Shown piece after piece: positions 3,781-62,600 of a stretch of DNA of 64,000 nt. The notes below the pieces were generated by a model, which saw only the letters and a list, made by a program, of their open reading frames with translations, did not search any database and had not been told where the DNA came from. How positions within the stretch are numbered: position 1 is the stretch's first letter; each line of letters opens with the position of its first letter. Position numbers and translations under genes: made by a program. This DNA comes from Tetradesmus obliquus (Eukaryota > Chlorophyta > Chlorophyceae > Sphaeropleales > Scenedesmaceae): positions 4,698,501-4,762,500 of the forward strand of contig CP126201.1 of assembly GCA_030272155.1 (NCBI GenBank), given 5' to 3'.

Positions 3781-6700
3781 ATGTCGGAGGAGGCGAGCGG
3801 CAAGCGCCCTGCCGCAGAGGCGCTTAAGGAAGCAGCAGCAGAAGAGGGGCCTCCCAGGCCCCCAGCAGACGCAGCAGATGGAGAGCAGGAGGAAGAGGAT
3901 AATGTCGGACCGCAGCTACCCAAGTCAAAGAAACGGAAGGTGCGCTGGCAGCAACAGCTGCTGCTTGTGAATGCTGCAGCGGCAGTTGTGCTGCTGCTTG
4001 TGCTGCTGCTGTACTTGCATATGTTGCTGCCACGGAGCTCCTTTGAGACACACAGTCGGTTGCTCACAGTCCTAACAATGTAAAATGCATCTTTAACTTG
4101 GTGAGGTTGCTTTGGCACAGTTCATTGTTGCCATTTAGCAATAGCACCAATCGGCTGCTCTCCTGCTGCTGACTGGTCACTCCTGCAGGTGCTGCCGTTT
4201 GAGCAGCAGTACCTGGATGCGCTGCCATGTGCACAGATGTACGAAAAGAGCTACATGCACAGAGACACAGTGACACACGTGGTGGTGAGCGTGCCAGTTG
4301 TGCAGCAAGCCCACAGCAACACAGCAGCAGCGCAGAGGTGCCAGCACGCCAGTGGCAAGCTATTGCCGTGCTTGGATGGTCAGCTGTGGCTGCAGCAGGT
4401 GCAGCAGCAGAAGCGTTACTCAGCTGGAAGATGCACAGCATGCGTGCCACAGCCCGCTAGGCTGCTGCAGGCATTGACTGACATCAGGCGTTTGCACTTA
4501 TCGCAGCAGCAGGTGGCAGAGCTGCAGCAAGCAGCAGCCTGCAGCAGTTGCATAATGCTGCTGCCATGCCCTGGGCCCTGCACCCTCACGTTTGAAGTAC
4601 ATGACCTGAACATAGCAGGTTGCAAACATGCTTGCTGCTGCTGCTGCTGTCGCTGCACCGCGCCAGGCCACCCCCAGCGACTTCATCATCACTGGCAGTG
4701 CTGACGGGCACCTCAAGTTCTGGAAGAAGCAGGAGCAGGGCATAGAGTTTGTGAAGCACTACCGCAGCCACATCGGCGCAGTGGACGGTGAGCAGCAGCA
4801 GCAGAAGCAACAGCAAAAGAAGCAAAAGCAGCAGAAGCAGCAGCATAGGTGCATCTGTGGATGAGCAGCAGCATGGGCTCAGCAAGCGGTACGCAGCCAT
4901 AGTTGGCAGCCGCTGCGCACTTGCGCCTGCAGGTGCACTTAACAATGCCTGTTTTCATAAGCTGTCATGCTTGTGGGTCGTGGCTGGTGTGCTGCTGCAA
5001 CTTCAGGCAGCCCACGCACAGCAAAATAGTTCGTGCGCTGGACGCGCTGTTGCTTTCGCGCTGTCTCTACATTGTTTGAGTGTGTGCTCCTCTCCTTTTC
5101 AGCCCCTGCCCCGCTGTTGACACCCTCACCTGTACCAATGCTGCGTTGCGGACCTGCAGGCCTGGCAGCAAGCCACGACGGCAGCCTGTGTGTGAGCATC
5201 AGCAGGGACCGCAGCCGCGGCAGCCGCTCTCACAGCTAGCCCAAAATGCACTGAACGCTGCTGGTCTTTTTTGCTGTTGTATTGCTTGCAGCCCTTGCAG
5301 CCAGCCACGACGGCAGCCTGTTGTTTGCCGCTATATCTTCAACCTGGCCACGGCCTTGGAGGCACTAACTGCTGCCGTTCTGTTTGCTGCTTTTGTGCTT
5401 GCAGGCCTTGCGGCCAGCCACGACGGCAGCCTGTGTGTGAGCATCAGCAGGGACCGCAGCGTCAAGGTGTATGATGTGCTGGGCTTTGACATGATCATGA
5501 TGATGAAGCTGCCATACACACCGGGCACTGCAGAGTGGATCTTCAAGGTGCGAAGCTCGCGGTGCTAGCGTGTGATTTCACAGTGAAGTTTGCAGTCTGA
5601 AGTTGATTGGAATGATGTGCTGAGCTTCGACATGATCATGATCATGAAGCTGCCACACCAGGCTCCGCAGAGTGGATCTTCAGGGGGTGAGAAGTTCATG
5701 GTGCTGCCTTGTATGAAGTTTAAGGCGTGGTATTGCATGCGTGTTGGACGCGATTGGGAGGCAGGAATTTGCTTCAGGGCTGCGTGGCTGGGATAAAGGT
5801 TGTTACAAAAAAGCGCTCTGCATATTGGTATCTCATATCATTATGCTCCACGAAGCGGGTTGCATTGCTGAGCAGTCAAAGGCTCAGTGCCCAGTCACTT
5901 TTCTGCAGCTGCTGGCTTCCTTTGCCGCCTCCTTCACAGCTGCCTTTGCCACTGCCTGCCGTGCATCTGGCACTATACATTGCAGAAAGGGGATGCCGCA
6001 GCCAAGCTGGCCATCAGTGACCTCAACAGCCCAGCCATACACATCTATGATGTGGCCAGCGGCAGCGAAGAGCCACTTGCTACGCTCAGCAGCGTTCACG
6101 CGAGCCCGGTGGCGGTCATGCGCTTCAACGCAGCAGCGAATGCCGTCATCAGCAGCGACGCCAAGGGTGAGCGTGTTGCATGTCACCTGTGTATCTTTGT
6201 GTGTTCTCTGAGTATCTCTTGTTGATTTTGAATGGTGGTCGAGCTGCAGTGAAACGTAGTAAGCTGAGATGCATATAAGGCAAGCTGTGCCTAGGGCTCA
6301 TCTACAACGGCAGCCAGGAGCCACTGGCTACGCTCAGCAGCGTCCACGCCAGCCCGGTGGCCGTCTTGCGCTTCAACGCAGTGGCAAATGCGGTCATCAG
6401 CAGCGACGCCAACGGTGAGCGCGTGTTTTGAATGTTGTGCTCCCTGGGTACCACTAGTGAAGCTGGACTAAAACTGGCAAACTGGAGATGCACGCAGGGC
6501 ACGTGGTGCCTGGTGGTAACCTATGACGAGCCAGCGGCAGCGAGGAGCCACTGGCTACGCTCAGCAGCGTTCATGCCAGCCCGGTGGCGGTCATGCGCTT
6601 CAACGCAGCCACAAATGCGGCCATCAGCAGCGACGCCAAGGGTGAGCGTGTTTCGCACGCTTTCTGTGTATCTTTGTGTGTTCTCTGAGTATTTCTTGTT

Positions 6701-7983
6701 GATTCTGAATGATGGTCGAGCTGAACTGAAATGTGATAAGCTGAGATGCAAATATATCGCAAGTGGCGCCCAGGGCTCATCTACAGCAGCAGCGAGGAGC
6801 CACTCGCTACGCTCAGCAGCGGTCACGCAAGCCCGGTGGCGGTCATGCGCTTTAATGCAGCCGCAAACGCAGTCATCGGCGGCAACGCCAAGGGTGAGCG
6901 CTGCTGGCGTGTTCATTTTGGTGTGATGTTATCCAGTATTGCGGTTTGATTGGAACCTGGTCGTGTCAGGACTGCACCGTTCGTCATGAAGACGGACACA
7001 GACCCGCTCATACACCTCACTGCTGCTGCAACATGCCAATTCTGCTGCAAAGGCTTCATTGAGTACTGGTCGTGTGACGACTACAAGCACCCCAGCGCTG
7101 CAGTGAGCTTCAGCATGAAGATACACATATGGACTTCTCAACTGCACTGCTGCCGCAATCTCTTTGTGTTGCAGGCTTCATCGAGTGCTGGTCGTGTCAT
7201 GGCGACCCTAACATCGCTGTGAACCATTTGACCATACTGACGTACCAATGCATAATTTTCATTGCTGCTGCACCACAGGCTTCATCGAGTACTGGTCGTG
7301 TGACGATTACAAGCACCCCAGTGCTGCAGTCAGCTTCAGCATGAAGATGGACACAGACCTCTTTGCACTGGCAAAGGCTAAGACGCACGCGCGCAGCCTG
7401 GAGGTCAGCAGGGACGGCAGCCAGTTTGCAGCCTTCTGCGCTGACAGCCGCGTGCGTGTGTGGCGCTTCGCGACCGGCAAGCTGCGGAGAACGTACGACG
7501 AGTCCATGGAGGTGCGCGGCGTTGTAAAACACTGTTGAATGCTGCCATTCAATGGCACAACCAATGGTTGGTTGTATGTGCTGCTGTCAGGAGATGCCTG
7601 CTGCTTGTTGCGCTTGATGAATCCTGCGCGGTGCGCAGAGCTCGTGAGTGCATGGTCCGCTACTGTTTTTATTCCATGCGGATACAGCTGCTGCTTCTTG
7701 TGTGTGATGCGTCAGTGGAGTTGCGCAGCGATGTTTATGTTGCTGTTACAGCAGGTGGATTTGTTTGCAAAGTATTCATACAGACTGTGCGCCACGCAGA
7801 TCCTTCAGCCGCCACCTTGAGATAGGACAGTGCGGCAGGTGTTGCCGATGCTGAGTGTGGGCAGCAGCCTTGACTGCTGCCCAGTGTTGCATGCCTCACC
7901 GGTCCCTTCTTGGTAAACTGTGGCGGTAGCTGCTTTGCTGCCATGCTGCACTGCTGGCACTATTCTACGCACCCTGCTGTACA

Positions 7984-8031
<48 letters not shown>

Positions 8032-8465
8032 ATCCCATGCAGGCTGCACACGAGCTGCAAAAGTCTGGCGCGGCACAGTTTGCAATCGATGACATGGACT
8101 TTGGCCGCAGGTGGGTGCAGTGTGTAATACAATGTGTGATAGCACAATACAAGCAGTTGACAAGAGAGAGCACGGTACAATCAGTTGACAACAGCAGTGT
8201 CAAACAGATGGCAGCAGTTTGTGATGGATGACATGGACTTGGCTGCAGGTGCCATTTGGTGGCCTGAGCTGTGCCAGCGATGCAGAAATATGGCTGTCAG
8301 CAAGAATGAAGTGCAGTTCTTATGCTGGGCACTTACTGTCATCAATGAAGCACAGTTTTTATTGCTGGGCACTGACTGTCAGCCATGAAGCACATTTCTT
8401 ATTGCTGGGCACTTGACACCTGGCAGCTTGCCATGCACGGTGCCGCATTGTTGGGCGGCTGACAC

Positions 8466-8506
<41 letters not shown>

Positions 8507-8561
8507 AGGTATGCCATGGAGAAGGAGATCCGTGCAGCAGGTGAGGCACCACACACGCCCT

Positions 8562-8594
<33 letters not shown>

Positions 8595-11500
8595 CAAAGC
8601 TGATCCCCTTCTGACAGCAGCAGCAGCGTACACCAGCAGGCGCTGCTGGCTTGTCTACACCAGTGCTCTTGCAAGCCCCCCACTTGTGCGCCCATCATGC
8701 CTTACAGTAAACCCTCGAAGTAACGACGCCACTGGGAACAGCCAAAAGTGTCAGTACTACAGTATGTGTTTGTCATTATTTTGCAACAGTTTTGCGGCAT
8801 TTCATGCACTTGGGGGCCAGCCGGACGTGTCGTTACCATGCGAAAGTCGTTACTTCAAGTGTCGTTACTTTGAGGCTTTAATGTACCGCCATGTTTCACC
8901 TGCTGCTGGTGCTGCTGCTGCCAGGTGACGCCGTGCCGGCCCCCAACGTGCTGTTTGACGAGTCCGGCCACTTCCTACTGCTGCCCAGCCTGCTTGGGAT
9001 TAAAGTCATCAACCTGGCCACAAATGCACTGCCACGGCTGCTGGGCAAGCCGGAAAACACGGAGCGCTTCCTGCGCATTGCGCTGTGGCAGGGCCTGAAC
9101 AAGAAGGTGCGGCTTTGCTGTTACATCTTTGTTCCATTTGTTGTATGGTCATCAACCTGGCCACCACTGCGCTGCCGCGTCTGCTGGGAAAACCCGAGAA
9201 CACGGAGCGCCTTTTGAGCATAGCGCTGTGGCAGGGCCTGAACAAGAAGGTGGGGGTCTCACATTGTTACATTCGAGCTGGCGTACAGCACTCATGCTCA
9301 ACCCTTGTTACAAACCCGGTTCTAAATCCTGCTGTGTGCCGCCCAAACCCATGTTACAACCCTATACTGCAGCACAAGAGCCGACCCGGCATGCCAGACA
9401 TGAAGCTGCCGGAGCGAGACCCTACGCTGGTGGCGCTGGCTTACAGTGCTGTTTTAGATCTCCATTGATTACCTTGGTTCTAAACTTTGCTGTGTCCCAC
9501 CCAAAACCATACCAATTACCCTGCATTGCAGCACAACAACCGGCCCGGCATGCCAGACAGACAGAAGCTGCCTGAGCGTGACCCCGCGCTGGTGGCGCTG
9601 ACCTGCAGCCCTCATCCTACATTCTTGTCTTCTAACCCTCAGCCTAAACCCTTGAATCTGCTGTACTAAAACCCCTAAAACCTGTGCAATGCAGCACAAG
9701 ATCCGGCCCGGCATGCCAGACATGAAGCTGCCAGAGCGTGACCCAGCGCTCGTGGCGCTGGCCTACAAGCGGCAGCGGCTGTACCTCTTTAGCCGGCGGG
9801 AGCCAGCAGACGCAGAGGATGCATCGGTGAGTAGGCTGGACTTCTTCTGGGTTTTAGGTTTCAGCGCTCTGATCAGATGAGTGACAAGTTGTTGTCGATT
9901 TAGCGGAGTCAATATGCGCCGCATTGAATCAGGTTTCAGGTGGGGCACGGCGTGTTGAGCCTAGCATGCTGCTCTGCTTGAAGTGCGGCAGCTGCCTGAC
10001 CTGACATGCCCGCTGCTGCTGCTGCTGCTGCCGCTGCTGCTGCTGCTGCTGCTGCTGCCGCAGATGGGGCGTGACGTGTTCAATGAGAAGCCCAGCACAG
10101 AGGAGCTGCTGGCGGCTGAGGCGGGCGCCACGTCAGCGCTGCCGCGCGGCGCATGCATACACACCACCAAGGTTTGTTCACAGTATGGCAGCGCCAGCCA
10201 TGCTGATCACCGACTACACTTCAGCATACATACTTGCATGGCGGTTTCGCATTCTAACTGGCAGCGATAGGTAAGATACGCGTGGCATAACTGGCCACAT
10301 TTTTGTGACTGTGCACGCACATGTACAGCAGCTGTACCTGAAAGCCGGCGGTACTGCTGGCATAGTGTGTGCCCCATGCAGCTGTGCGCTGCGTATTCCG
10401 TGCACTGCCGCGGCGCCAGGATCGCGCCATACTAGGTGCTGTGCGCTTTCTGTGTGTCGCTGCAGAGCCGCAGTTTCTTTGCGGCCTGCGGTAATGGTGC
10501 TGAATGCACATGTGCCGTGGGGTTCATGCTAACATCCAACATTTGCATGGCTGTCAAGTGATGGTTCCGGTGTGCTGTGTGTGCAGGGTGACATCACGGT
10601 GCGGCTGTTCCCTGACGAGTGTCCGCGCACGGTTGAGAACTTCACCACGCACGCCAGCAACGGCTACTACGACAACGTGATCTTCCACAGAGTGATCAAG
10701 GGCTTCATGCTGCAGACGGGCGACCCGCTGGGTGAGGCGCTGGCTGTGTAACATATCATAACTGTGTGATATAACTGTTGCGCGACTAAATAGTTATAGG
10801 TCTTGCGGCATTGCTGTGCTGTGCATGCTTTGCTGGTGTATTGAACACTTGCGTCATCAAGGGCTTCAAGCTGCAGACAGGCGACCCGTTGGGTGCGACC
10901 TAGGCGCACCCCATAGTGCTGTGTCGCTGCATATTCGTGGTTGCGATGCTGTGTGCATGCGTTGTGCTGCTGCATGCCAAGGCATTCTGCTGTGGTGTAA
11001 TCAGGGGTTTCCTGCTGCTGGCTGGCGACCCGCTGGTTGAGCGAGGCACATGTCAGTGACCCGCTGAGGCTTCGAGCTCTGTTCTGCGCCCGCTCTGCCT
11101 CGGCTGAGATGAATGCAAGATGGTTTGAGCTGCTGTGTATGCTGCTGTCATGGCGTTGCAGGCAATGGCCTGGCGGCAATCCATCTGGGGCAGCCAACCA
11201 CTGCATGACCCAATATATTTATCTTCAAACTGACTCTAAACCGTTTTTGTGCTTCTGTCCTGCGCAGGCGACGGCACTGGCGGCGAGTCCATCTGGGGCG
11301 GCGAGTTTGAGGACGAGTTCCGGCCCACGCTGCGCCACGACAGGCCGGGAATCCTGTCCATGGCCAACGCAGGTGAGCCGTTTTGTAGTCGCTGCTGCTG
11401 CTGCTGCTGCTTGTGATACATACGGTTGCAGTCTGCTGCACTGTGTGCTGAATGAGGCAAGAATGCATAACGATGCTTGTGTTACCTGACCGCAGGCCCT

Positions 11501-11918
11501 AAAACCAATGGCTTCTACTTTTGTTGTCACTACTGTGCCCACGCCCTGGCTGGACGGCAAGCACACCGTGTTTGGTGCTGTTGCCTGGGTTGCTTGCAAC
11601 GACTTGCTTGTTTACACCTGCCGCTTGCCTGTTGACTGCCACCTGCAGGCAAGCACACACATGCTCCCATGCTCAATCTCTCCCTCTGCTGCCCAAAATC
11701 TGCCACCCGCAGGCCCCGGCACCAACGGCAGCCAGTTCTTTGTCACCACCGTACCCACGCCGTGGCTGGACAACAAGCACACCGTGTTTGGGCGCGTGGT
11801 CAAGGGCATGGACGTTGTGAGCCTCATTGAGAAGGTCAAGACGGATCGCACAGACAAGCCCGTGGACGATGTGAAGATCGTGAACATCGATGTGCTGGAT
11901 GCGGTGGCGGAGAGCTGA
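3781..11918 (+). CDS. CYP71: WD40-cyclophilin CYP71/PPWD1 (peptidyl-prolyl isomerase)
   Basis: Fourteen exons splice to 652 residues: 3781-3939, 4189-4284, about 4619-4787, 5405-5547, 5986-6166, 7279-7511, 8043-8110, 8509-8540, 8925-9106, 9695-9826, 10064-10171, 10587-10731, 11268-11372 and 11713-11918. Only the exon 3 acceptor is uncertain. The order matches plant CYP71 and human PPWD1: acidic/basic N-terminus ending KSKKRK, WD40 repeats ([47 protein letters not shown]) over residues ~85-330, a linker with IYLFSRREP-type sequence ([16 protein letters not shown]), and a C-terminal cyclophilin domain from about residue 500. Cyclophilin active-site features are present: [22 protein letters not shown] and [13 protein letters not shown]. 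In plants CYP71 acts in the nucleus in chromatin-based gene control; PPWD1 is spliceosome-associated. Many introns carry extra copies of neighbouring exon ends, listed separately. Confidence 0.95.
5160..5404 (+). repeat. Two acceptor echoes of CYP71 exon 4
   Basis: Decayed copies of the first part of exon 4 (coding [16 protein letters not shown]) begin at 5160 and 5292, each right after a CAG, before the true exon at 5405. Spacings are 132 and 113 bp. A donor-side echo of the same exon ([10 protein letters not shown]..., 'agtggatcttcag') lies at about 5605-5683, after the true donor at 5548. Confidence 0.85.
6167..6894 (+). repeat. Three donor echoes of CYP71 exon 5
   Basis: After the true exon 5 donor at 6167, the exon tail of about 105 bases ([20 protein letters not shown] through SSDAKG) plus its gtgagc donor recurs three times. 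The copied donors are at 6415, 6642 and 6894. Flanking intron sequence ('tgtatctttgtgtgttctctgag') is copied too, giving units of about 227-252 bp. Confidence 0.9.
7053..7278 (+). repeat. Two acceptor echoes of CYP71 exon 6
   Basis: Copies of the exon 6 head ([20 protein letters not shown]) begin at about 7053 (acceptor changed to CAAAG) and at 7175 (CAG kept), before the true exon at 7279. Spacings are 122 and 104 bp. Confidence 0.85.
7985..8030 (+). repeat. (CTG)15 microsatellite before the exon 7 acceptor
   Basis: A pure CTG run ends 12 bases before the exon at 8043. Further CTG or CAG runs in this gene lie at 8467-8508 (directly part of the exon 8 acceptor), 8563-8593 (CAG) and 10010-10063 (leading into the exon 11 acceptor). 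Confidence 0.9.
8111..8249 (+). repeat. Donor echo of CYP71 exon 7
   Basis: The exon 7 tail (DDMDFGRR) is echoed at about 8215-8248 (MDDMDLAA) with a following gt at 8249. That is 138 bp after the true donor at 8111. Confidence 0.7.
8705..8883. mobile_element. 179-bp MITE with pogo/Tigger-like terminal repeats
   Basis: Inside CYP71 intron 8, the left end CAGTAAACCCTCGAAGTAAC and the right end read inward (CATTAAAGCCTCAAAGTAAC) match at 17 of 20 bases and both continue into GAC. TA dinucleotides flank both sides (8703-8704 and 8884-8885), as expected for a TA target duplication of the Tc1/mariner-pogo group, whose ends commonly begin CAGT. There is no transposase inside, so it is non-autonomous. 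The interior has a further 'gtcgttacttcaagtgtcg' repeat. Confidence 0.7.
9107..9249 (+). repeat. Donor echo of CYP71 exon 9
   Basis: The last ~100 coding bases of exon 9 ([20 protein letters not shown] ... LWQGLNKK) recur between about 9147 and 9249, followed by gt at 9250. That is 143 bp after the true donor at 9107. Confidence 0.9.
9373..9694 (+). repeat. Two acceptor echoes of CYP71 exon 10
   Basis: Copies of the exon 10 head ([20 protein letters not shown]) begin at 9373 and 9532, each after CAG, before the true exon at 9695. Periods are 159 and 163 bp. The second copy has a small insertion (DRQKLPERD). Confidence 0.9.
10732..11267 (+). repeat. Echoes of CYP71 exons 12 (donor side) and 13 (acceptor side)
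   Basis: The exon 12 tail ([14 protein letters not shown]) is echoed at about 10850-10892 ([14 protein letters not shown]) and 11005-11036 ([10 protein letters not shown]). An echo of the exon 13 head begins at 11162, 106 bp before the true exon at 11268. An exon 14 head echo ([19 protein letters not shown]) begins at 11496, before the true exon at 11713. Confidence 0.8.
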
Positions 11919-12181
11919 TCAGCTCTACACCTCATGAGGCCTAGGCGGCAGGATGGAGCTGGATTTGATTAACCTCTTCAGCGTTGACGTGCTGGATGCA
12001 GTGGCGGGGAGCCGGCAAGGTGGGAGTGGACTGCTGCCGCAGCAGCGGCTGCTGCTGCTGCTGCTACTGCTGCCACTGTTCAAGCCTGTGGACGATGTCA
12101 AGATTGTGAAAATTGACGTGCTGGATGCAGTGGCGGAGAGCTGAGGCCGCAGGGTTAAAGCAGACTGCTGCTGCAGCAGCA

Positions 12182-12212: not shown

Positions 12213-12959
12213 CCTTTCACGCCCGTGGACGATGTGAAGATTGTGAACATCGACGTGCTGGATGCGGTGGCGGAGAGCTGATGTTGCAGGCTGTGGATCC
12301 AATGCTGTCTTAGGCCGGTCAGCATGTGCGTGCTTGATGACGGTGCGGCGTGGCCGAGGCCGTAGCCAGCAGCAGGCACGGCAAGCAGGAAGTTTGATGT
12401 GGCCATGCGTCACGTGTGACGCTGAAACGCTGGCTGCTGTGCTGCAGAGTGCAGCGCAGCAGCAGTTGCGTGTTATGGGTGGTGTTTGGTGCCACGGCAG
12501 TGTGTATGTCTTGCGTGCGGACCGTCCACATAGACTGTGCTGGCTGTGCCTCTGTGTTCGGCATGCTGGCAGCCGCCAGGGGCAGCAGGCCCCTGCGGCG
12601 GCCGCTTGTGGCATCCAGCTTCACATTTGGAAGTCACAAGCCACTTGGTTCAAGCACGTTGCAAGCCACTTGGCTGCAGCTGTAACAGCTGACATCGGAC
12701 TCCCATTGGGCGGCTTTTGGGGCGGGTCCATGGCTCATTTGTGGTCAAAGGCATCCCCTCGCACAGCATCTGCAAACCCTTTGCTGCGGCAGCGCAACAC
12801 AATTTGTTGAACACAGAAATGCTGGGCTCATGACAGTGTTCCCAGGCTAGTCACAGCCTACTAGGGCTATGCTCAACAAGACAGAGCCCGCGATCAGTAC
12901 GTACGTACAACCCCCAAAACGTTGCCCAATATAACAAGGCTGGCTGCAGCGCTCAACAA
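11919..12959. other. Convergent intergenic region, CYP71 and LRR gene 3' ends
   Basis: Begins with the three tail copies of the CYP71 last exon. A TGTAA at 12681-12685 is a possible + strand poly(A) signal. No further gene seen; ORFs on both strands here overlap the tail copies or CTG tracts. Confidence 0.5.
11970..12281 (+). repeat. Three tail copies of the CYP71 last exon behind the stop
   Basis: After the true stop (11916-11918), the C-terminal codons ([18 protein letters not shown]) recur at about 11980-12015, 12087-12144 and 12224-12281. The last two keep the full segment and its TGA. Copies are separated by CTG-rich spacers of about 80-90 bp. Confidence 0.9.
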
Positions 12960-13130
12960 TCAGCGCAGGCACTGGTCTGCTACTACGGCAACACTCGCCC
13001 AAGGCATACGCTGCAGCAGCGCCTGCTGCAACTCCAGCCACGTGCCACCCTCACTAGCAGCCTGCAACTCCCCAGCAGGCCCGACAGCAGCAGCAGCAGC
13101 AGCAGCAGCAGGGGCCCCTGCCGCTGCTGC

Positions 13131-13178
<48 letters not shown>

Positions 13179-35464: not shown

Positions 35465-35496
<32 letters not shown>

Positions 35497-37403: not shown

Positions 37404-37438
<35 letters not shown>

Positions 37439-39974
37439 AGGTATGACCGCGGCGGTGGCGCGGGCATGCAGGTGTCTGCGCTGTCGGCGCAGGGCGGCGG
37501 CGGTGGCGGCGGCAGGGCTGACCGGCGCGTGACACTTGGCCAGATTATCGATGAGGACCTGGGCATGCACGGGGAGGCGGCATGGGTTGCGGTGAGCTGC
37601 TTGTACACTTTGGGTTCCCACATGCATATAAGTGCCAGTGCAACTGCGAGTGGTAGGCCATACAAATCATGGATGCAGCTTGGGTGGCGGTGAGTTGTAA
37701 CAAACCCTGAACATCCATCACGGTATTGATCACCACTAGGTAGGAGTTGCGTTGAAAAACGTCCACCTTGTGTCCACTGGTGTTGTATGCTTGCTGCTGC
37801 TGCTGCTGCTGCTGCTGCAGGTGGTGGCCACGCTGACTCAGGTCAACAACGGCGACAGGCCGCTGGTGTACCCCTCATGCACGCGGGAGCGCAACGGGCG
37901 GCTGTGCCAGAAGAAGCTGCAGGGCCAGGAGGGCAGCTGGTGCGGCCTGCTGCTGCAGCTCTTGAATAGCATGTCGGATATTGGCGGTGGTGACGGCAGG
38001 AGGCAGCAGTGAAGGGAGGCAAGCAGCAGATGCCTAGCAGTGTTCTGCTCGCACAAGGCTTGGTTGGCTGTGCTGCAGTGCTGGCAGGGCACTGGGCGCT
38101 GTGCTGGGATGCCTGGGCAGCGCATGAGGCATGCTGCACCTGCTGATGTGATTCTGTGTGCTCGCTCCTGACACTGGCTGTGTTGCTGCTGCTGCTGTTT
38201 TTGGTGGCTGCCGCTGCTGCAGGTTCTGTGAGACCTGCGGCACAACTGTGGAGCAGCCAGCCTACCGCTACCTGCTCAATGTTGTGGTGAGTGTGGAGTC
38301 CCGTGTGGGCGTTGACTTGACCAAAATCGTATGCTGCAGATGGCTCCGCAGCACCAGGCTTGCTGCACCAAGGGCTGTGTTGTTACACGCAGCTTATGTT
38401 TATAGACATGCTTCAACGCCGCTGCTGCGGCCCCGCAAACCAGTGTCTGCGCAAGCAAGGCCCTGCAGCTGCGTGCGAGCTCAGCCCTTATATTGTTGCC
38501 GCTGCTTTTGTTGCTGCGCTCCACTTCTTGCGCAGTGTATGGGCCACACGGGCCAGCAGAACCTGACTGCCTTTGGCGACACCGGCGAGGCCATCATGGG
38601 CTAAAGGTCAAAATAGCAAACAGCTCATCTCACCCCAGTGCCTGTGCACAAATGCTGCTTTTCATGCAGTGCATGGACCACACAGGGCAGCAGAACCTGA
38701 CTGCCTTTGGCGACACAGGCGAGGCCATCATGGGGCGCACAGCAGATGAGCTGGCTGACACGCAGGCCATGGGGGAGGCTGCGTATGAGGCAATGGTGCA
38801 GCAGCGCATGAATGCTGTGAGTATGAGTATTCAACTGAAGAAGACAGATGCGCCATGCATTGTGCTGCTATCTCAATGCTGTAGCTGTTGATATCTGCTG
38901 CAGCTTTGTCCATGAATTGTGACGGCACATTCAACACCCTGCTCTGATACGCGTGTTTCTCTTGGCTGCCTGCTGCTGGCAGGTGTACAGCTTCAAGCTC
39001 AAGTGCTTCCAGGACACCTACAACGATGAGACGCGGCGCAAGGTGAGGCAGCAGCAGCGAGAAGGCTGTCTTAAAAGGCTGTTGCGGCTATTGCGAGTAC
39101 TGCTGCGGTGCATGAGTGTGTGAGGGCATGCTTGTGTGAGGGCCCACATAACAACAAATCCACCAAGCGTAAATGAGACACGGCTGCGCCATCACCGCAG
39201 CTGGCATGCATGAAAGGCCTGGTCGTGTCACTTGCTTGCAGTTCAATCTTAGGGCCGTTGGCTTGTTTGTTGGTCCCTGAAGTTGCTGCCTGTTCACTGT
39301 GCTGCTGCTGCCGCTGCTGCTGCTGCCAGATCTCCATCTCCAAGCTGACCAACGTGGACTATGTGGCAGAGGGGCGGCAGCTGCTGGAGCTCATCGGCAA
39401 GCTGGAGGCAGGCCAGCCCATCTTCACTGCACAGCCAGCAGCAGCAGCAGCAGCAGGCGGCAGGGGTGGCAACATGGGCATGGGTGGCGGCGCACCAATG
39501 GGTGGTGGTGGCGGCGGCGCTGCCGCTGGGCAGTACGGCGGAGGCGGTGGCGGCGGCAGCTATGGAGGGGGGTATGGCGGGCCACCGCAGCAGCAGCAGC
39601 AGCAGGGCATGGGCGCGTCGCCGTATGGTGGCGGTGGCGGTTACGGTGGTGGCGGCGGCGGCGGTTATGGAGGGCCGCCAGGCGGTTACAATGCTGGCGG
39701 CGGCGGTGGCAATTGGAATGGCGGCGGTGGCGGCGGAGGTTACCAGCAGCAGCAGCAGCAGCAGCCACAGCAGCAGTATGGCAACCAGCAGCAGCAAGGC
39801 GGCTGGAATGGCGGCGGCGGCGCAGGTGAGTCATGTGAGCTTGTCGTGCTGCGGCTGCTGGCAGCGTTGGCAGCATAGCCTGTGTTGTGTTCACTGCTGG
39901 CTGCAGCCATCGAGTTGTGTGGCCGAAGTAGTTTACATGATGATTTGTGCGCTCATTACAAGTGCTCATTACGC

Positions 39975-40013
<39 letters not shown>

Positions 40014-40139
40014 GCAGGCATGCCAGGTGGTGGTGGCGGCAACTGGGGTGGCCCCGCCCAGGGGCCACCTGGCGGCTTCCAGCAGGGGCCTCCTCCTCAG
40101 CAGTACAACGCAGCACCCTTCAATGCAGGCTTTGCCTGA
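30854..40139 (+). CDS. RPA1: Replication protein A 70-kDa subunit (RPA1)
   Basis: Fifteen exons, 880 residues: 30854-30944, 31046-31250, 31870-32308, 32792-32892, 33239-33359, 34798-34962, 35503-35667, 36712-36908, 37441-37591, 37821-37939, 38223-38286, 38670-38816, 38983-39042, 39330-39825 and 40018-40139. Domains: N-terminal OB fold DBD-F (~1-105), a Gly/Pro/Gln-rich linker (~125-245), DBD-A (~246-365; [31 protein letters not shown]), DBD-B (~375-500; [17 protein letters not shown]), and DBD-C (~515-690) with the zinc ribbon [10 protein letters not shown]...WFCETCG and [18 protein letters not shown] long Gly/Gln-rich tail (~715-880) ends the protein; no CCHC zinc knuckle was seen in it. RPA1 binds single-stranded DNA in replication, repair and recombination within the RPA heterotrimer. 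Introns are crowded with copies of exon ends, listed separately. Confidence 0.96.
32569..32791 (+). repeat. Two acceptor echoes of RPA1 exon 4
   Basis: Heads of exon 4 ([16 protein letters not shown]) recur at 32569 (more decayed) and 32678, each after CAG. Periods are 109 and 114 bp before the true exon at 32792. Confidence 0.88.
33119..33494 (+). repeat. Echoes on both sides of RPA1 exon 5
   Basis: A head copy ([18 protein letters not shown]) begins at 33119, 120 bp before the true exon at 33239. A tail copy ([17 protein letters not shown]) ends at 33494 with a following gt at 33495, 135 bp after the true donor. Confidence 0.9.
33758..34797 (+). repeat. Nine-copy acceptor-echo array before RPA1 exon 6
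   Basis: The sequence ..GCAG|GTGGRGCGYGTGGTCACC with the following ~40 coding bases ([17 protein letters not shown]) occurs ten times, starting at 33758, 33866, 33975, 34081, 34212, 34321, 34427, 34558, 34689 and 34798; the last is the true exon. Spacings are 108, 109, 106, 131, 109, 106, 131, 131 and 109 bp. Unit types A (109), B (106) and C (131) form a 346-bp higher-order repeat, 33866-34211 and 34212-34557, almost identical between the two copies. Every copy keeps an acceptor. Confidence 0.97.
35133..35502 (+). repeat. Three acceptor echoes of RPA1 exon 7
   Basis: Heads of exon 7 ([19 protein letters not shown]) recur at about 35133 (acceptor lost), 35248 and 35372 before the true exon at 35503. 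Periods are 115, 124 and 131 bp. CTG runs lie between copies. Confidence 0.93.
35668..36219 (+). repeat. Four donor-side echoes of RPA1 exon 7
   Basis: After the true donor at 35668, the exon tail ([17 protein letters not shown]) recurs with ends at 35804, 35919, 36099 and 36218. The first three keep a GT donor (gtgaga, gtgagg, gtaaaa); the last has lost it (ttgaga). Distances between ends are 137, 115, 180 and 119 bp. Confidence 0.95.
36436..37046 (+). repeat. Echoes on both sides of RPA1 exon 8
   Basis: Head copies ([19 protein letters not shown] and [20 protein letters not shown]) begin at 36436 and 36554 before the true exon at 36712. A tail copy ([20 protein letters not shown]) ends at 37046 with its own gtgagc, 138 bp after the true donor. 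Confidence 0.92.
37296..37690 (+). repeat. Echoes on both sides of RPA1 exon 9
   Basis: A head copy ([20 protein letters not shown]) begins at 37296, 145 bp before the true exon at 37441, and carries a run of G. A short tail copy (DAAWVA with gtgagt) ends at 37689, 98 bp after the true donor. Exon 12 has one head copy at 38536, 134 bp before the true exon at 38670. Confidence 0.85.
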
Positions 40140-44000: not shown

Positions 44001-47000
44001 GCACTTATGAACGGCGTATAAACAAGACTGCATCACCCTGTGTGCAGTGCTGGAGCTGGTGCTAGGCCGCTTCCCTGCCGATTCAACCATTCTGACAGCC
44101 TTCACTGAGCATGCACTGGAGGTGGCAGCAGCAGCAGGCAATGCCAGCACAGCCCCCAGCCTCAACAGCACGGGCCCTGCAGCCATGCTGGCACAGCGCA
44201 CAGGCAGTGCAGCCGCTTCAGCTGCAGCGACTGCACAGCAGCAGCAGCAGCAGCAGCAGCTGTTGGAGGTTTTGGTGCTTGAGCAGTTGGAAAGGGCTGA
44301 GGAGGCTCGCACAGCTGCAATGAAGGACGAAGACCTGTCATACAGGTGCGGCCTTGCCTCCGCCGTTTTGTAGCTGTCGTGGCCTTGGTTGGTCGATTTC
44401 GGCAGCAGCAAGGCGGTGTACGTCAGGCTTCAACTGTTGACGCTTGGAGTCGCGGCATGTTGCTGCGAGAAGCACTACCTACCTTTATGATTTGCTTTCT
44501 GCTGCTGCTGCTGCTGCAGGCTGCGTGAGGCGCTGTACAACCACGCAGCGGGCAAGTTCAGGGGCAAGGACTTCCAGGCGGCAGTCAAGTTCTTTGCTGC
44601 CACGCTGGAGGTGTGCGAGGTGAGCACTGGCGCTGCAGGTGAAGCCTGAGGCTCAAGTTTGTTGTCTTGCTGCAAAGGATGGGAGGTGCAAGTGGCAACG
44701 GGTCTAGCCACAGTGCAGTGTGAGCAGTGGCCACTCCTGCAGCTGCCGCACCGCAACAACACATGCCTGTTCTTGCTCAGCATCTGGTCTGCCATGTGAC
44801 ACGCTGTTTGGTACAAGCTTTGTCAACAAATCAACTGTTGTGTTGCTGACATTTTCCGCCTTGGGCCCCCTGCCTGCATGCTGCATGCATCTTTTCTCCT
44901 TCTGCAACACTAGGAGCGTGTCAAAGGCCGTGTGGCGCGTGCGCTGGCGGTGTGCCACCTGGGCTTGGGGCAGCTCAGCCAGTCGCTCAGCTACTGCGGC
45001 ATCGCAGGTGGGCAGCAGCTGCTGTTGGCCTGCTACGGCAGTGGCTTGCAAGAAGAATGTACTGCTTGCTTGTGGGTTGTTTACCGCTGCTGTTGGGTCA
45101 TTGCTGCTGGCCACTTCAATGACTCTCTGGTCAACGCTGAGGGCGCAGCCTAGGGTATCGCGTCACGTAACTCGATGCGCATGCTGGATTGCATTGTGCT
45201 GAATGCAGAGGCGTACGAGCCCGGGCGCATCGCCACCAGCTTCATCCGCTTCAAGCTGCTGCTCAGCCAGGGCGACCAGGCAGGCGTGCTGGCAGAGCTG
45301 CAGCACATGGCGCGCTGCAGCGACTTCTGCCACCACATGCTGTGGGTGAGTGTGGCGCTGATGGTTGGCCTGCGTGCATGCACTGATGCACAATGTAGGC
45401 TGGCACATATCACGATTGAATGTTGGGGTGGTCTATGGTGTAGGATACTTGCTGTTCTGTGCAAGAGAGCATGCTGCGGCAGCCGCACATGGCTCTGTAA
45501 AAATCAAAGGTTCAGTTTTGGAAGTGCAGAACAACTCCGTGCACACCAATGCATGCTCAGCTGCAAATGGGCTGCTGCATGCGAGCTATGTGCCTTCTGG
45601 ACGCTTTCCCGCCCGCCCGCCTGCCTGCCTGCACACCTACCTGCTTGCCTGCCTGCCGCAGATTGCTGTCAAGGAGTCCAATGCGAGCAGCCACCCCAGC
45701 AACATTCCCATTGCCAAAGCAGCCCTGCAGCAGCTGCTGGCTCTAGTGCAGGCCAGGCGAGACGGGGATGCCTCAGCAGAGCTGGGCAGTGAGGATGGCT
45801 TTGCTCTGACAGAGGCTGATGTGCTCAAGACGATGGTCAAGGTGCACCAGCAGGTAAGCTTCCTGCAAGAACAGCTTCAAGGGCGCTGTGGAGGAGCTCT
45901 GGCTGCAGCGTACATGCTGCCACAACCGCAGGCACATGCTTTGCCTTGCGCCTTGCCTCGTTACAAGAGCCTACGTGAATCAAGCAGCAGCAGTGCAGCA
46001 TCCTCCTGGCTCACATCGTGTGTGGTTGCTGTGCTGCCTGCTTGCAGGAGCTGGACGACAGCATGCAGCGCAAGGCAGCAGCAGCAGAAGCAGCAGAGGC
46101 CGCTGGCAGCACCCTGCTGCCAGACCAGCAGCAGCAGCAAGCGGAGCTGCAGCAGCTGCAGGCCAGTGTTGAGGCATGCATCAGCGGCTTAAGTGAGGTG
46201 TTGAACACTGCGCTGCAGCGGCTGAGGCGGCTGGGGCTTGAGGGCTTTGCTGGCGCTGGCGAGGAGGGCTCTGTGCTGCAGCTGGTGGAGTGGCTGAGCA
46301 CGTCCAGCTACAATGCAGGCGTGGTGGCGTCACGTGAGTGCTGGGGATTGGAGCAAGGTTGTCTGATGTCTGAGCAGCTTTATGTGTGGTAGGGAGACAG
46401 GCGGAATGCCATAATGTGACTTCTTCCTCCTTCCTGAGTGATTGTGTGGGCATAGCTGCTACACTGCACTGCTGGGCTGCCTGGTTGTGCTGACGTGGCG
46501 TTGGAGGGGTGTGCTGTGCAGTGATGGATGCATACCAGCGCTGTGCAGTGTTCATGCACACCTCCGCAACCCAACAGTAAACGGATGTCCAGACATTGTG
46601 CATGAAGGGAGGCGGGCAGCACGCCAGTACTCAGCTACTTGCCCCTTGCTGCAGAATGTTTCGCTGGTCGTGACTGCTGCGTCTATTTATGTTATGTTGA
46701 TGCTGCATGCTGCTGTACGTGCCTTGTACTGCAGTGATGGACGACTACCAGGGCTCTGCGGTGCTCATGCACACCTCAGCGCAGCTCATGGGGCTGCTTC
46801 CCAGCCAGGGGCCTAAGCAGCTCAAGCTGCAGAAGACCGCCTATGCGCTGGCGGCAGCCGCAGGGCTGCAGGTGCATGAGGCCATGCCACAGCATGCAGG
46901 TGGGCAGGGGGGCTGTGTTGCATGCATGCGCTTGCCCTCGTGCGTACCAGCTGCGGCTTGCTTATCTAGGGGTGGAAAAACCCAGACGACTTGTCATGCA

Positions 47001-56879: not shown

Positions 56880-59652
56880 ATGGACAGGCAAGCTGCTTCT
56901 CCAGCTGCTGCTGCAGCTGGACCTGAGGAACTGAAGCAGCAGATATACAGCCAGCTCAAGAAAGCAGGAGTGGTATCATCCCTGAAGGCAAGTAACAGCC
57001 TAAAAATAGACCATACTTGCAACTGCCTGACATGCCCTGCCGGCATCCCGTACGCATGCACACCACGGTCAAGCTGTCACAAGCGCTTGCAACCTGCGCC
57101 TGTTTTGGGGCTGCGGTCAACACATCTGCCACCGCATGTGCTGTCTGTGGCGCCATGCATGCTTCACGTTTTCGTCCGCAGAGCCAGCTTCGCATGCAGC
57201 TGCTGGATCAGCTGCGCAAGCTTGCAGGACCAGATGCAGTGCGCGCAGCAGGCACAGGGACCGACCAAACTCGCAGCATGTGGCATGCAGCGCTGAACTG
57301 CATGCTTGCGGAGTACCTGCAAGCCTCAAATTGCCAGTTCACGCTGTCTGTGTTCAACTCAGAGACAGACACAGCGCCTGGGCAGCCAGCGTACTCGACA
57401 GAGGAGCTCTGCCAGCTGCTGAGGCTAGACCGGCAGCCGCAGCTGCTGCAGCGCGTGCAGGAGCTGCTGCCATCCCACGGTGAGCTGCTGCAGCGGCTGC
57501 TGCCTTGCATTTCAACAGCATGCAAGTGCATGCACCTGAAATGGCAGTAAGGCCATCCACATGACATGCACAGTTTGCCAGCTGCGCAGTTGACGGCTGT
57601 TGATGCGCCTGAATGTATCATGAGCAGCGGCTGACTTGCGGTGCTGCACAGCCATGCATGCCCACACCAATACCAGCAGGTCTTCCTGTTGTACATACAG
57701 CTGTTATCTGCGCATGACTGTGTGCCCGCAGGCTGCTTGGTGCTAGCGCTGCTTCAGGCACTGGCCAGCAGTGGCGGTGGCCCCACCACCGCTGACAGCA
57801 GCTGTCAGACCAGCCGGCCAGGGCAGCTGGATGGCCTGAAGGGGCGGCTGCTGCAGCTGGAGGATGCATACATGGCAAAGGTGGGCTTCAGCTGCTACGA
57901 CCTCAGGCACCGGGCACAGTAGCAGCATGTGTGCGGGAATGTAAGGCAGCATGCGTCGCCGTGCAGCGGCACATGCAGCAGATGCTTGTGGAAAGTTGCA
58001 GCATGGCAGCAGCAACAGCTGGCAGGACATGGGACAAGAAATTCGTCCGCATTCACTCCCTTGTGTGTGAACAGGACACGCTCTGCATGCGCAGCTGGGT
58101 GTGCTAAGCCGAACTTTGTTTGATACTCTGTCTGATACAGGCTGCGCAGAAGGCTACCGCAGACCCACGCCTTACTCTGGACCAACAGATGTCTGCTTAC
58201 AAAAAGGTGATCACAAAGCATGCACTCATGCAGTACCCAGCGGTGACCAGAAAGTGCTGCGCCAGACTCACACAGCAGTGCATGTGCCACCTCTTGTCAG
58301 CACTGCTCGCTCATGCACCTGCCCCAGCTAATACCCACCTCAGCACCGCATGCCACTGCACGACTTGGTTATCTCACACACTCACACACGATGTTGTGCT
58401 GTGTGCTGTGGGGCTGCAGGAGTGTGATGAGCTGGTGGAGCTGCAGGTTGCTGCGCGTGTGGCGCGCATCAGGGAGGTGGAGCTGGCCGCAGCACGCCAG
58501 GAGGCGGCAGCAAAGTGAGCAGCAGCAGGCGGCAGAACAGCAGTTGGCGTCGCAGCATGGCTTCCAGCCGCTGAATTGTGTATCATCAGCTGTTCAAGCA
58601 GCTGGGGCACAAAGTTGGTTTGGCCTCAACTCGTAGTGACTAGCCAGAAAGATTGTAAATAGCATGACAAACGCATGCAGGCAACGCGATGCACAAAGCA
58701 TAACGCCGGCAGCCCTGTGCGCCTTCGCCACCCCATGCAACGGGTGGCACTGCTTTTGCTGCAGCCTACCTTGCTCTTGCTTGGCCGCGATTCCACTCTG
58801 CATGTTGGGTGTCTGTGTCCCATGGTACCAGCAGCAGCTGGAGGGGGACCGGCAGGGGCTGGAGCGCATCCATGCCTCTGTGCTGATCCCTACTTTCCTG
58901 TCACATATCATTGCGTTGCTGTCGCTGCGCCGCGCAGGCACCGGCAGCAGCTGGACGCCGACAGGCGGGAGCTGGAGCGCACAACCGCGCCTGTGTGCTG
59001 ATCTCTGCTGGAGAAACAAATAACGTTTCTGATTATGTTCACGCAGGTACCGGCAGCAGCTGGAGGCGGACCGCCAGGAGCTGGAGCGCATCCACAGCGA
59101 GCGCCTGGCGCGCCTGGCAGCACGCGAGGAGGCAGTCGGGGAGAAGCTGCGCCGCCAGCAGCGGGACGTGGAGGGCATTGCTTACAGCCAGCGGCAGCGC
59201 ATACTGGCAGAAGAGGACCGGCTGCGCGGCATGAAGGCAGAGGTGCGTGCGCGTGATTGATGGCTGGGCCTGCGGTGATGGGGCTGGGTATGGGGAGAGG
59301 CATAGTGCGGCGGGGGGTGCAGACAGCTGCATGCAGATGAGGGCCGCCTCACATGTTGATCAGCAGCTGCAATGGCACGCTGGAGCAGTGCTGTATGTGT
59401 TCATCTGCACGCGCCATCACGTTAGGTTGTGTTCGCGGCTGCCACGTCTGCTGCTATCTACAAGCGATTCCATCACAATTTCTTGTGTGTACTGCTGTGC
59501 CTCGGATGCCTGCAGGTGGGCCGCCAGCTGGAGGTGCAGGAGCAGCTGCTGCACGGCCTGGAGGCGCAGCTGAAGGAGCGGGAGCGTGCGGTGTCCGGTG
59601 AGGCAGCAGCAGCAGCATCAGCACCAGGCATCCCCACTGTAGGTTTGTTTGT

Positions 59653-59699
<47 letters not shown>

Positions 59700-62600
59700 C
59701 AAGTTGTGTGTGGTGCGCTCTGTACTGCTCGTGCTGCCTCGTCATGGCGTCGCTCGCGCTTGTGGCATGGCTGACGTCCGACGATGCTGCTCCTGTGTAT
59801 GTGCAGCGCGTGAGCTAGCTGCGGAGACGAAGCTGGCAGAGGTGGCTGAGCTGGAGTCAAAGCTGGCAGCAGCAGCCCGCAAGGATGCAGCAGCAGCGCT
59901 GGCGGAGGAGCAGGCAGCGCTCAGGTGAGGCCTGGGCGGCAGGCACGCCAGCATATGAGATATGCAAGCGGGTTGATTGGAGCAGCACAATCCTCGTGAC
60001 AGATGATTTACAGCACTCCTTGCCGCGCTTGGCGCTGGTTGCAGTCGCGTGTGTCGCTGAAACTCACGTGTGCGTTGGTTTGGTGACCAGCTGTGCGCGC
60101 GCTGCGCGCGTATCACCACGCTGTTCTCAAAGAAGCTGCTTCTGCCTGGCCGGCTGCACGTGCGCAGGGGCGAGCGCACTGCGCTGGAGTCTGAGCGCGC
60201 TCGGGTCTCTGAGCTGAGGAGTGCCGTCAACGCTGACCTGGCGGTGGCACGCGCACACGAGGACAGGTGCGTGCCGTGCATGGCTCAAAGTATGTTGACC
60301 TGCATCTACGTGTATGCACATGCAAGCGCGCACATCTTCGTGTGAGGGTTGTCAGTCGGAAGTCATGTAGGGAGTACACCAGCACAACCCTCTGACCCGA
60401 CAACTGCAGAGCCGATTTGCACTACCAGTTATCACTCATTACATACCACAAACGTTGCTGCTGCTGCTGGCTACTTCGTGCGCTGCCGCATCCCCGCCAG
60501 GCTCCGCACACTGGAGGCGGCGCGTGCAGAGGCCGAGGCGCGCTCAGCAGCACACGCTGCCGGCGAGGAGGTGCTGCGCATGCAGCTCAAGGCCCTGCAG
60601 GCAGAGGCAGCAGCACTGCAGCAGGAGCTGGTGCGCACCGGTGCTGCCGCCGGCGCAGCTGCTGCAGCAGCAGGAGGCATGGATGCGCAGCAGCAGTTCG
60701 GCTATGTGCTGGGTGGCAGACCGCTGGGTGGGATTGGTGGAGGAGGCGGGGCGCCGCTGCAGCTGCCGCAGGCGCTGCGGGAGCTTGGGCAGTGGCAGCG
60801 GCGCGCGCAGCAGGCTGAGCTGCTGGCTGAAGAGGTGGGTGAACTGGCAGCAGTGCGGTTGGTGCTGTGTGTGCGCTGCATATGTTGGTTTGAGATTTTG
60901 AACAATGCGCAGCAGGCTGAGCTGCTGGCTGAAGAGGAGGGTGAACTGGCAGCAGTGCGGTTGGTGATGTGTGTGCGCTGTATATGTTGTTCAGATGTTG
61001 TGCGAACGATGTGCAGCAGGCTAAGCTTCTGGCTGAGGAGGTGGGCTGGCAGCATTGTAGAAGGTGTGATTTATGCACTGCATATGTTGTTCCAGATGTT
61101 GAGCAATACGCTGCAGGCTGAGTTGTTGGCTGAGGAGGTGGGTGGGCAGCAGTGTGGTTGGTGTTTTGTGTGCACTGTATTCGTTTTTTGAGATGTTGAG
61201 GACAGTGCATGTGGGCAGTGGCAGCATCTTGAGCTGCTGGCAGTTGCGCTGCATTGGCCAGTTGAGTGTTTCTTCTTGTACCCATACAAGGCTGCACCCA
61301 CGCATCACACCCCGTGCTGTTTTTGCCACCGCCTTCTTTGCAATGCAGGCGGCTGTGGAGCGTGATGCAGCGCAGTCGCGGGCAGATGAGCTGAGCTTGG
61401 ACCTCAATGCAGCGCGCAGAGAGGTGGCAGCGCTGCGCAGCCAGCTGGCGCGGCAGCAGCAGGACATCATTCAGCTGAAGCTGCAGCTGTCGCAGGCTGC
61501 AGCCAGCGCAGCAGCTGCTGCAGTAGCGAGCGGCAGCGGTGGAGGCAGCAGGGGCGGCAGCCTTGGCGGTAGGCCTGGCAGCCCCCTGGGCCGGGGTGCA
61601 GCCGCCACTGCTGCTGCTGCTGCCGCTGCTGCTGCTGCTGCAGTGGCGTCTGGGAGGTCTGGTGTATTCATGGGCAGTGCTGGGGGCGCTGCGGCAGCTG
61701 GCTTCTCGCCTGCAAGGGGTCAGTGGCAGCAGCAGCAGCTGCAGGGGTCGCCAGCTCCAGATCGGGAGGGGTCACTGGGCTTTGGCTCCCCACAGCAGCA
61801 GCAGCAGCAGGAGCGAAGCGGGTCTGTAGGAGGTGCAGCAGGCAGCAGCGGTGGTGCCGCAGAGGAGAGCAAGGTAGGTGCTGCTGTTTGTGCCATGTAC
61901 ATGCACATGTGTTGCGCGCATTGTTGGCACGAAGATGTAGACTCAATTGCAATGCACGACCAACAAGCATGCAACGGGCTGCACATCTGCAAAATTAGCC
62001 GATTGATGTGGCGTGTGCCGCTTCAGACCTGTGGCACAGCATCAGCTGTGGGTTGAGTGGGACTCCTCCGATGTTGGTGCTGGCAGGCTTGCAGCGCTGT
62101 CTGCTGCCCCAGGCTGCCACTTTCTACCAAGCACAGCATCGACTGCTGAGAATGCACTGCTGCACGGCTGACCTGCTGTTGTCTGGCTGCCGCCGCTGCT
62201 GCTGCTGCAGGCTGCCTCTGCGCGCCTCGCGCAGCTGTCTGCCGCTGATGCCTCCATGTCGCAGCGCCTGGCGGAGTTCAGGCGCCGCAGTGCTGCGCAG
62301 CGCGCAGTAGCAGCGCGCCAGCTGGCAGACCTGCGCGCAGCCAACAGCGGCGGCGGCGCAGACCCCGCTGCTGCTGCATCACGGCCTGGCGGCTCTAGCG
62401 GTGGTGGTGCGGCAGGCTTGCAGGGGCAATGCAGGCTGTCCATTCCCAGCGAGTTTGATGGCTTTGGGGGCAGCCAGGTGGAGGAGGCTGCAGGTGGGCT
62501 GAGCTTGATTTTCGGGATGTAGCATGGCCGACTGTGCTGAAGGGTGCAGATGTGCGCGGCCAGCATGGTTGCAAACTGTTGCTGCAGCTGGGCCTAGCTA

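Follow-up and report, generated by a model that had tools for sequence, protein, structure and literature searches.

Intronic copies of exon edges in the green alga Tetradesmus obliquus: probably silent junction-spanning tandem duplications, possibly renewed from the selected exon

Minisatellites with concerted evolution consist of units of ~100 bp, form arrays and develop higher-order repeats. Intron gain by tandem duplication crossing an intron–exon boundary has been described for RdRp of potato in the passages of PMC4974935 on this case, and human tandem duplications made by fill-in of staggered breaks are discussed, in the relevant section of PMC8355091, as short insertions (<100 bp). Here, we describe copies of exon edges in introns of Tetradesmus obliquus, for which Table 1 of PMC5966456 lists a genome of 108 Mb, a GC content of 57% and a mean intron of 462 bp. 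The stretch under study, hereafter the window, comprises 64,000 nucleotides (C11:4698501-4762500, GC 57%) of a 104.66-Mb genome in 17 contigs. In its RPA1 and CYP71/PPWD1-like genes, introns repeat the edges of the adjacent exons: copies of an exon head lie upstream of that exon, copies of an exon tail lie downstream, and both are referred to as echoes. We interpret them as silent duplications spanning a junction that were later re-copied from the selected exon, an interpretation to which we give about even chances; the duplication step is well supported, and renewal we infer from the decoupled ages of the two halves of a unit.

A self-trained hidden Markov model gene finder calls some echoes exons (e.g. 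at window positions 6414 and 6641) and also predicts some introns that are too short to be credible, at its lower bound of 45 bp. For the former reason, RPA1 and CYP71 were modelled by hand from reading frame and splice sites and then checked against solved homologues; everywhere else gene models were computed. For RPA1, the stretch translated from exon 2 to within exon 12 aligns to the RPA large subunit 4gnx (4.5e-84) and to RPA70 8rk2, and the CYP71 translation aligns to PPWD1 5yzg (8e-184) and CYP71 6lkb (7.5e-82), thus the aligned parts have junctions established without reference to the echoes, and both proteins read through without any echo. When each exon was compared with the exon-masked sequence of its gene (blastn, E ≤ 1e-3), RPA1 gave 25 copies outside exons, 19 of heads upstream and 6 of tails downstream, with none of exon middles, none on the wrong side and none in a non-adjacent intron; the controls gave 2 matches in three other stretches and 2 antisense. 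CYP71 gave 19 copies (7 heads upstream, 11 tails downstream including 3 past the stop, and one 20-bp middle piece), and its controls gave no match in other stretches and none antisense. All 44 copies, i.e. 26 heads, 17 tails and the single middle piece, adjoin their own exon. A preliminary description of the window had claimed that introns of both genes repeat adjacent exon edges, ~26 times in RPA1 and ~16 times in CYP71 plus 3 behind its stop, and that internal exon parts are rarely copied; the homology-checked models confirm this, with counts that match closely.

Exon copies were also sought in a genome sample of 344 kb (0.33% of the genome), which consists of the window and seven 40-kb blocks (B1-B7; contigs C1 to C4). 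Sample exons came from the gene finder, with 295 of 653 kept after length and score cuts, and 30-bp scanning windows with ≥25/30 matches were sought within ~800 adjacent bases, with a different block as control. Low-complexity 30-mers and exons near block ends were removed here, and simple-repeat pairs and pairs with <26 identities in the repeat analyses. Exon heads recurred upstream in 17/229 cases and exon tails downstream in 22/222, compared with 1/222 and 2/205 for heads downstream and tails upstream, 1/152 and 3/152 for exon middles, and zero throughout in the different-block control. Edges therefore recur at 7–10% of junctions, middles at 1–2% and the control at 0, and the direction claimed for the window genes holds in the whole sample. 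Wholly intronic scanning windows recurred in 2/201 to 7/242 cases before acceptors and in 5/247 to 8/239 after donors. The scan gave 84 echoes, which were reduced to the 45 nearest per junction where so stated, and homology drops sharply at the splice site, the intron side being ≤16 bp in 36 of the 45 nearest pairs. Tandem origin, periods of 100–180 bp and all degrees of decay (79–100% identity in RPA1 and CYP71), as previously claimed, are supported.

Six of the seven blocks (B1, B2, B4, B5, B6 and B7) contain edge clusters, as does the window, with none in B3. Echoes, present at 45 of the 531 junctions, are clumped (permutation p = 0.0005, 43 bins of 8 kb). Start-codon edges with an echo number 0/13 and stop-codon edges 1/15. 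Echo-bearing introns are longer, with a median of 544 versus 303 bp. Exons with echoes also differ in composition (GC3 0.81 versus 0.74; coding score per base 0.140 versus 0.123; 38 versus 239 exons), a difference that could reflect expression level or chromatin.

Among 77 repeat clusters in the sample, 48 lie at edges of strong exons, 6 fall inside exons, 1 is partial and 22 have no contact with a strong exon; by eye, several of these 22 are edges of weaker exons. A criterion that counted any AG or GT inside a repeat as a junction gave 168/171 and was discarded as meaningless. Random placement predicts a ratio of one-junction to intron-only clusters of 0.33, and we observed 48 edge clusters versus at most 22 others, a several-fold excess of exon edges over intron interiors. 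Expressed as 48 of 70 clusters (edge or none), the edge share exceeds both the ~25% given by placement (binomial p = 2e-14) and the 33% that results if edge copies are detectable 1.5 times longer (2e-9). The preliminary description had proposed a scan of edges against middles as evidence for duplication centred on junctions. Edges do exceed middles, but this cannot decide for junction-centring, because an edge copy is all that remains of any silent tandem duplication across an exon edge; what speaks for something junction-related is the over-representation of edge clusters and the non-random placement of the junction within the unit, whereas edge restriction itself needs no junction-seeking.

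The smallest spacing lies between 96 and 165 bp in 54 of the 77 clusters, with 3 below and 20 above. For the 33 units ≤165 bp (12 of the 45 are longer and were left out), the exon share has a mean of 0.38 (0.17–0.71) and is non-uniform (Kolmogorov–Smirnov test, KS, 1e-5), and the intron share is ≥41 bp on both acceptor and donor sides. Some echoes form arrays of the type (exon-flank)n-exon with an unlike outermost flank (B1 19381, B2 37320, B5 13917 and RPA1 exon 4); the RPA1 exon-4 array has periods of 109/131 with a higher order of 346, and the intron flank of its outermost copy is unlike that of the true acceptor.

The ages of the two halves of a unit were compared by a neutral-decay expectation for the flank, derived from exon-part differences of the 45 nearest pairs under a uniform age prior. 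A flank score <12 was found in 31 of 45 pairs, compared with 3.4 (indel ratio 0.2) or 8.4 (indel ratio 0.5) expected, and the other 14 have clearly homologous flanks (score ≥12), e.g. B1 22535/22792. Weak flanks nevertheless keep residual homology: it persisted against a same-gene control after pairs with p ≤ 0.05 were dropped (36 pairs, KS 9e-5), and a within-intron control showed a skew for 31 donor echoes (2e-8) and 19 acceptor echoes (0.011). Many weak flanks therefore look like the true flank after long divergence, joined to a young exon copy, rather than foreign sequence. By eye, flanks of the RPA1 tail echoes at 35751..36218 also seem homologous yet very diverged. Beyond the exon part of the echo, no general homology to the following exon was found in 42 pairs (KS 0.55; 6/42 at p ≤ 0.05), 3 of 45 having been left out for lack of room. 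Intrinsically faster intron mutation was rejected as an explanation, as in B1 22011/22296, a clear true duplication, exon and intron parts diverge about alike by eye. Foreign insertion was rejected as the general cause of the spacers, as weak flanks keep residual homology and one of two searched spacers (B1 19101/19246) has no match elsewhere in the genome.

The other spacer (L032:5436-5503, i.e. C4:1025436-1025503), between two 100%-identical exon-tail copies, carries a ~60-bp dispersed repeat, mobile-element-like and intronic, with at least about 30 partial matches (75–93%) elsewhere in the genome; among the matches listed, the exon part of this unit recurs only at its own locus. A satellite-like array of 191-bp period and ~91% identity lies in predicted intergenic DNA (L030:1-1135).

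Differences between exon and nearest echo fall on codon positions 1, 2 and 3 as 33:32:68 at the 45 junctions, close to the 1:1:2 expected if the echo changes freely and its exon accepts changes at third positions alone. Decay is thus roughly neutral, and echo spacing ignores the frame (14/15/16 for remainders 0/1/2 modulo 3). At the 23 junctions with two or more echoes, 15 differences at positions 1 and 2 are shared versus 108 unshared, echoes of the same junction having thus diverged largely on their own. Echoes as coding or alternative exons were rejected by frame and stop counts: by computation, use of the echo site would add an in-frame stop in 66/84, shift the frame in 55/84 and keep it in 6/84. 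An origin from a diverged functional allele or hybrid, considered in view of a few third-position pairs, was rejected by the 33:32:68 split, with some room left for it in the subset of high identity described below.

We propose that the process would start with a tandem duplication of ~100–165 bp crossing an exon edge or the coding-sequence end. This event would presumably be silent, the extra edge landing in the intron or past the stop and the copy attached to the exon body continuing to work, and the mRNA would be unchanged provided that the outer site is used. Duplications within exons would break the protein and be lost, thus edge-only copies would be expected to build up without any preference for junctions. 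Since selection holds the exon constant, the exon-derived half of the unit and the exon would remain recombination partners after the intron halves have diverged, and unequal exchange, slippage or gene conversion could re-copy the exon edge together with the invariant splice consensus onto old echoes. The same exchanges would expand some echoes into arrays, with intron halves drifting freely, and the outcome would be exon-anchored minisatellites with a young exon edge and an old intron flank. The array form fits renewal from the exon, as does the decay pattern of acceptor splice sites: acceptor echoes with weak flanks have a mean pyrimidine-tract score of 1.35 versus 3.75 for real sites, with AG kept in 17/19.

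Several observations weigh against this proposal. No conversion event was directly seen in this single genome, and exon-part divergence shows no overdispersion (chi2 49.6, df 44), whereas random conversion times predict some spread. Re-copying leaves the 96-bp lower limit and the donor-side intron share of ≥41 bp unexplained. For 7 of the 31 weak-flank pairs the spacer has a displaced match in the outer intron (p ≤ 0.05), and some flanks may only be shifted; with matches in only these 7, displacement by later insertions was rejected as a general cause. Of 13 clusters at ≥95% identity, 8 are classed as edge (9 counting the one at window 5155, identified as an edge by blastn), therefore formation itself may be edge-biased. 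The 55 echoes with ≥27/30 matches, array members being counted repeatedly, differ as 15:21:64, beyond 1:1:2, and the 45 nearest echoes contain no stop among 107 changed codons (49 synonymous, 58 not), both of which could hint at past constraint. Third-position differences are shared more among echoes of one junction (44 versus 97 unshared). Moreover, donor echoes with weak flanks match real donors in strength (mean 2.05 versus 1.51; GT in 27/31), which could also mean function.

If plain tandem duplication were followed by neutral decay and nothing more, with survivors limited to edges as they are spliced out, then direction, edge restriction, roughly neutral decay and the lack of frame preference would all be accounted for, and so would the 14 pairs with clearly homologous flanks. 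However, plain duplication fails to explain the age of the other 31 flanks, the edge excess over a ratio of 0.33, the unit size, the non-uniform junction placement and the clumping of echoes, and we regard it as rather improbable. A different possibility is that repair or template switching begins at splice-like microhomology (CAG or GTGAG) and transfers a copy of the exon edge to the intron, in which case echoes would have stopped at the splice site since birth. The short intron-side homology agrees with this, even where the exon part is 94–100% identical, as do the over-representation of edges and the mirror-image acceptor and donor forms; however, flanks retain residual homology, genuine junction-spanning duplications are present in 14/45, CYP71 copies end at a stop codon, and no donor was found genome-wide for the B1 19101/19246 spacer. 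Such junction-specific copying is unlikely but deserves consideration.

Echoes might instead be functional, as decoy or regulatory splice sites under selection. AG is kept in 35/39 and GT in 39/45 echoes, which together with the strong donors and the lack of stops would suit this idea, but the retention of 74/84 differs little from what neutral decay at the age of the exon part would give (0.86), the 1:1:2 codon-position spread is that of a neutral copy, B1 22011/22296 diverges alike in both parts, most echo sites would bring a stop, and five echoes of 82–91% identity (RPA1 35140, 35250 and 36170; CYP71 5612 and 10997) have no AG or GT at the aligned position. Selection of this kind is therefore quite improbable, and of the earlier suggestion of decoy or alternative splice sites, the strong sites in echoes stand and alternative products are unsupported. 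Haplotype or repeat mis-assembly is very improbable indeed, for all degrees of decay, directionality and codon-position structure are not products of mis-assembly, and edge clusters are found in nearly every block. Silent duplication with renewal would, in its widest form, make exons standing templates that re-seed their own introns and rewrite decayed junction copies, giving strong decoy sites genome-wide and longer introns in a subset of genes; this wider claim we put tentatively, at somewhat less than even chances.

Coordinates are collected in Table 1. The CYP71 echoes past the stop copy an edge with no known splice site, thus what counts may be where constrained sequence ends, not where splicing takes place. 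One CYP71 intron contains a 40-bp unit repeated 2.8 times (8305-8414), one of few non-simple tandem repeats with a unit <96 bp, and a 971-codon open frame rich in alanine and leucine (12960-15875, minus strand) lies directly beyond CYP71. GCT/CTG microsatellites directly precede several acceptors (7985-8031, 8467-8506, 10012-10058 and 35456-35500, among many places in the window), and intron ends in the window often read ..TGCTGCTGCAG.

Echoes had also been reported for OFD1, and more weakly for ZIP4 and a pseudouridine synthase. Both OFD1-like arrays are real, and the one at 60805..61200 has homologous flanks, i.e. it is a true tandem duplication; the gene name is weakly supported, by a LisH match below the cutoff of Pfam and nothing else. 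The ZIP4-like region has one weak echo, and the one piece of it that was tried had no Pfam match. Pfam S4 and PseudoU_synth_2 matches back the identity of the pseudouridine synthase; the repeat in this gene (28135-28407, 74.5%), however, did not fall into the exon-edge class. In addition, a RING-finger protein (open reading frame 52088-53686, minus strand) contains an exon-internal protein repeat of 123 bp (41 aa, Cys-rich) with ~5.8 copies at 52773-53499, whose unit size is in the range of intronic echoes but in frame.

Table 1. Genes, exons and echoes in the window (window positions; percentages are identities)
Feature	Position	Strand	Remarks
CYP71/PPWD1-like gene	4667..11919	+	12 exons modelled, 5' exons not included; homology-checked
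CYP71 coding exons 1-6	4667-4787, 5405-5547, 5986-6166, 7279-7511, 8043-8110, 8509-8540	+	
CYP71 coding exons 7-12	8925-9106, 9695-9826, 10064-10171, 10587-10731, 11268-11372, 11713-11919	+	
CYP71 exon-2 head echoes, two	5160-5215 (95%), 5293-5321 (97%)	+	both preceded by AG
CYP71 exon-2 tail echo	5612..5682	+	87%; no GT at aligned position
CYP71 exon-3 tail echoes, three	6305-6412, 6521-6641, 6784-6893	+	87-90%; GT present
CYP71 exon-4 middle piece, 20 bp	6985-7004	+	
CYP71 exon-4 head echoes, two	7053-7127 (92%), 7175-7197 (96%)	+	preceded by AG
CYP71 exon-5 tail echo	8210..8248	+	85%; GT present
CYP71 exon-7 tail echo	9148..9249	+	86%; GT present
CYP71 exon-8 head echoes, two	9373..9607	+	89%, 86%; preceded by AG
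CYP71 exon-10 tail echoes, two	10853..11036	+	90% with GT, 82.5% with TT
CYP71 exon-12 head echo	11504..11575	+	82%; preceded by AG
CYP71 coding-end echoes past stop, three	11986-12012, 12081-12144, 12218-12282	+	89-95%; edge without known splice site
RPA1 gene	31870..40137	+	13 exons modelled; first and last exon outside homology check
RPA1 exons 1-7	31870-32308, 32792-32892, 33239-33359, 34798-34962, 35503-35667, 36712-36908, 37441-37591	+	
RPA1 exons 8-13	37821-37939, 38223-38286, 38670-38816, 38983-39042, 39330-39825, 40018-40137	+	
RPA1 exon-2 head echoes, two	32569..32716	+	79%, 95%; preceded by AG
RPA1 exon-3 head echo	33119..33168	+	83%; preceded by AG
RPA1 exon-3 tail echo	33443..33494	+	90%; GT present
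RPA1 exon-4 head array, nine echoes	33758..34738	+	91-100% versus exon 4; all preceded by AG
RPA1 exon-5 head echoes, three	35140..35427	+	87-91%; two without AG at aligned position
RPA1 exon-5 tail echoes, four	35751..36218	+	85-93%; three with GT
RPA1 exon-6 head echoes, two	36439..36639	+	89%, 92%; preceded by AG
RPA1 exon-6 tail echo	36981..37046	+	92%; GT present
RPA1 exon-7 head echo	37296..37358	+	90%; preceded by AG
RPA1 exon-10 head echo	38536..38600	+	92%; preceded by AG
ZIP4-like region, weak exon-head echo	46522..46567	+	23/30; predicted exon starts at 46735
OFD1-like gene, tandem copies at predicted exon edge	58824..59094	+	period 113
OFD1-like gene, four-unit array at predicted exon tail	60805..61200	+	period 102

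The raw material from which longer introns, alternative splice sites and new introns can arise is seen here at many stages of decay, and the genome of this alga would make it possible to measure how often silent tandem duplications form, what limits their size and what becomes of them. If re-copying is true, purifying selection on exons shapes the evolution of adjacent introns, a link that we did not find in the literature searched; for annotation, the warning is that gene finders will call echoes exons, as the self-trained one did here. No account of the dense, genome-wide and edge-restricted form was found in the full-text literature searched, which covers top-ranked results and lies largely outside subscription journals.

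Each related system shares part of this pattern. Introner elements, as presented in the relevant part of PMC9860276, likewise carry splice signals and shape introns, but they are one element copied into many genes, whereas, of three units searched in the alga, those of RPA1 and B1 matched only their own locus in the genome, and the third is the L032 unit described above. Intron gain by exon duplication at AGGT (the Rogers/Hellsten type, according to the passages cited from PMC3443670 and PMC4974935) is likewise a within-gene tandem duplication hidden by splicing; there the duplicated exonic segment becomes the new intron, whereas units in the alga span an existing junction and, as said above, do not in general resemble the following exon beyond the exon part. 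Internal gene duplication (Gao and Lynch 2009) likewise involves frequent tandem duplication within genes and is cited, in the passages at hand, for common internal duplications and duplications of entire introns, not for dense partial edge copies. The size range of 96–165 bp would be unusual for fill-in of staggered breaks. The arrays resemble minisatellites in their ~100-bp units and, in RPA1, higher-order repeats, but each array in the alga includes a single copy under selection, namely the exon edge, and it is mainly that half that stays alike; in the nearest pairs, the exon half seems younger than the intron half. The closest likeness is to potato RdRp, where the duplicate also consists of an intron end and the adjoining exon edge beside the original, as do the heads and tails of RPA1 and CYP71. 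The passages on potato describe a single case, in which the new intron takes in part of the upstream copy; the alga, by contrast, has ~20 copies per gene in two genes, on acceptor and donor sides and apparently silent, with some arrays and with intron and exon halves that differ in age. The echoes of the alga are thus a variant of the boundary-crossing duplication known from potato RdRp.

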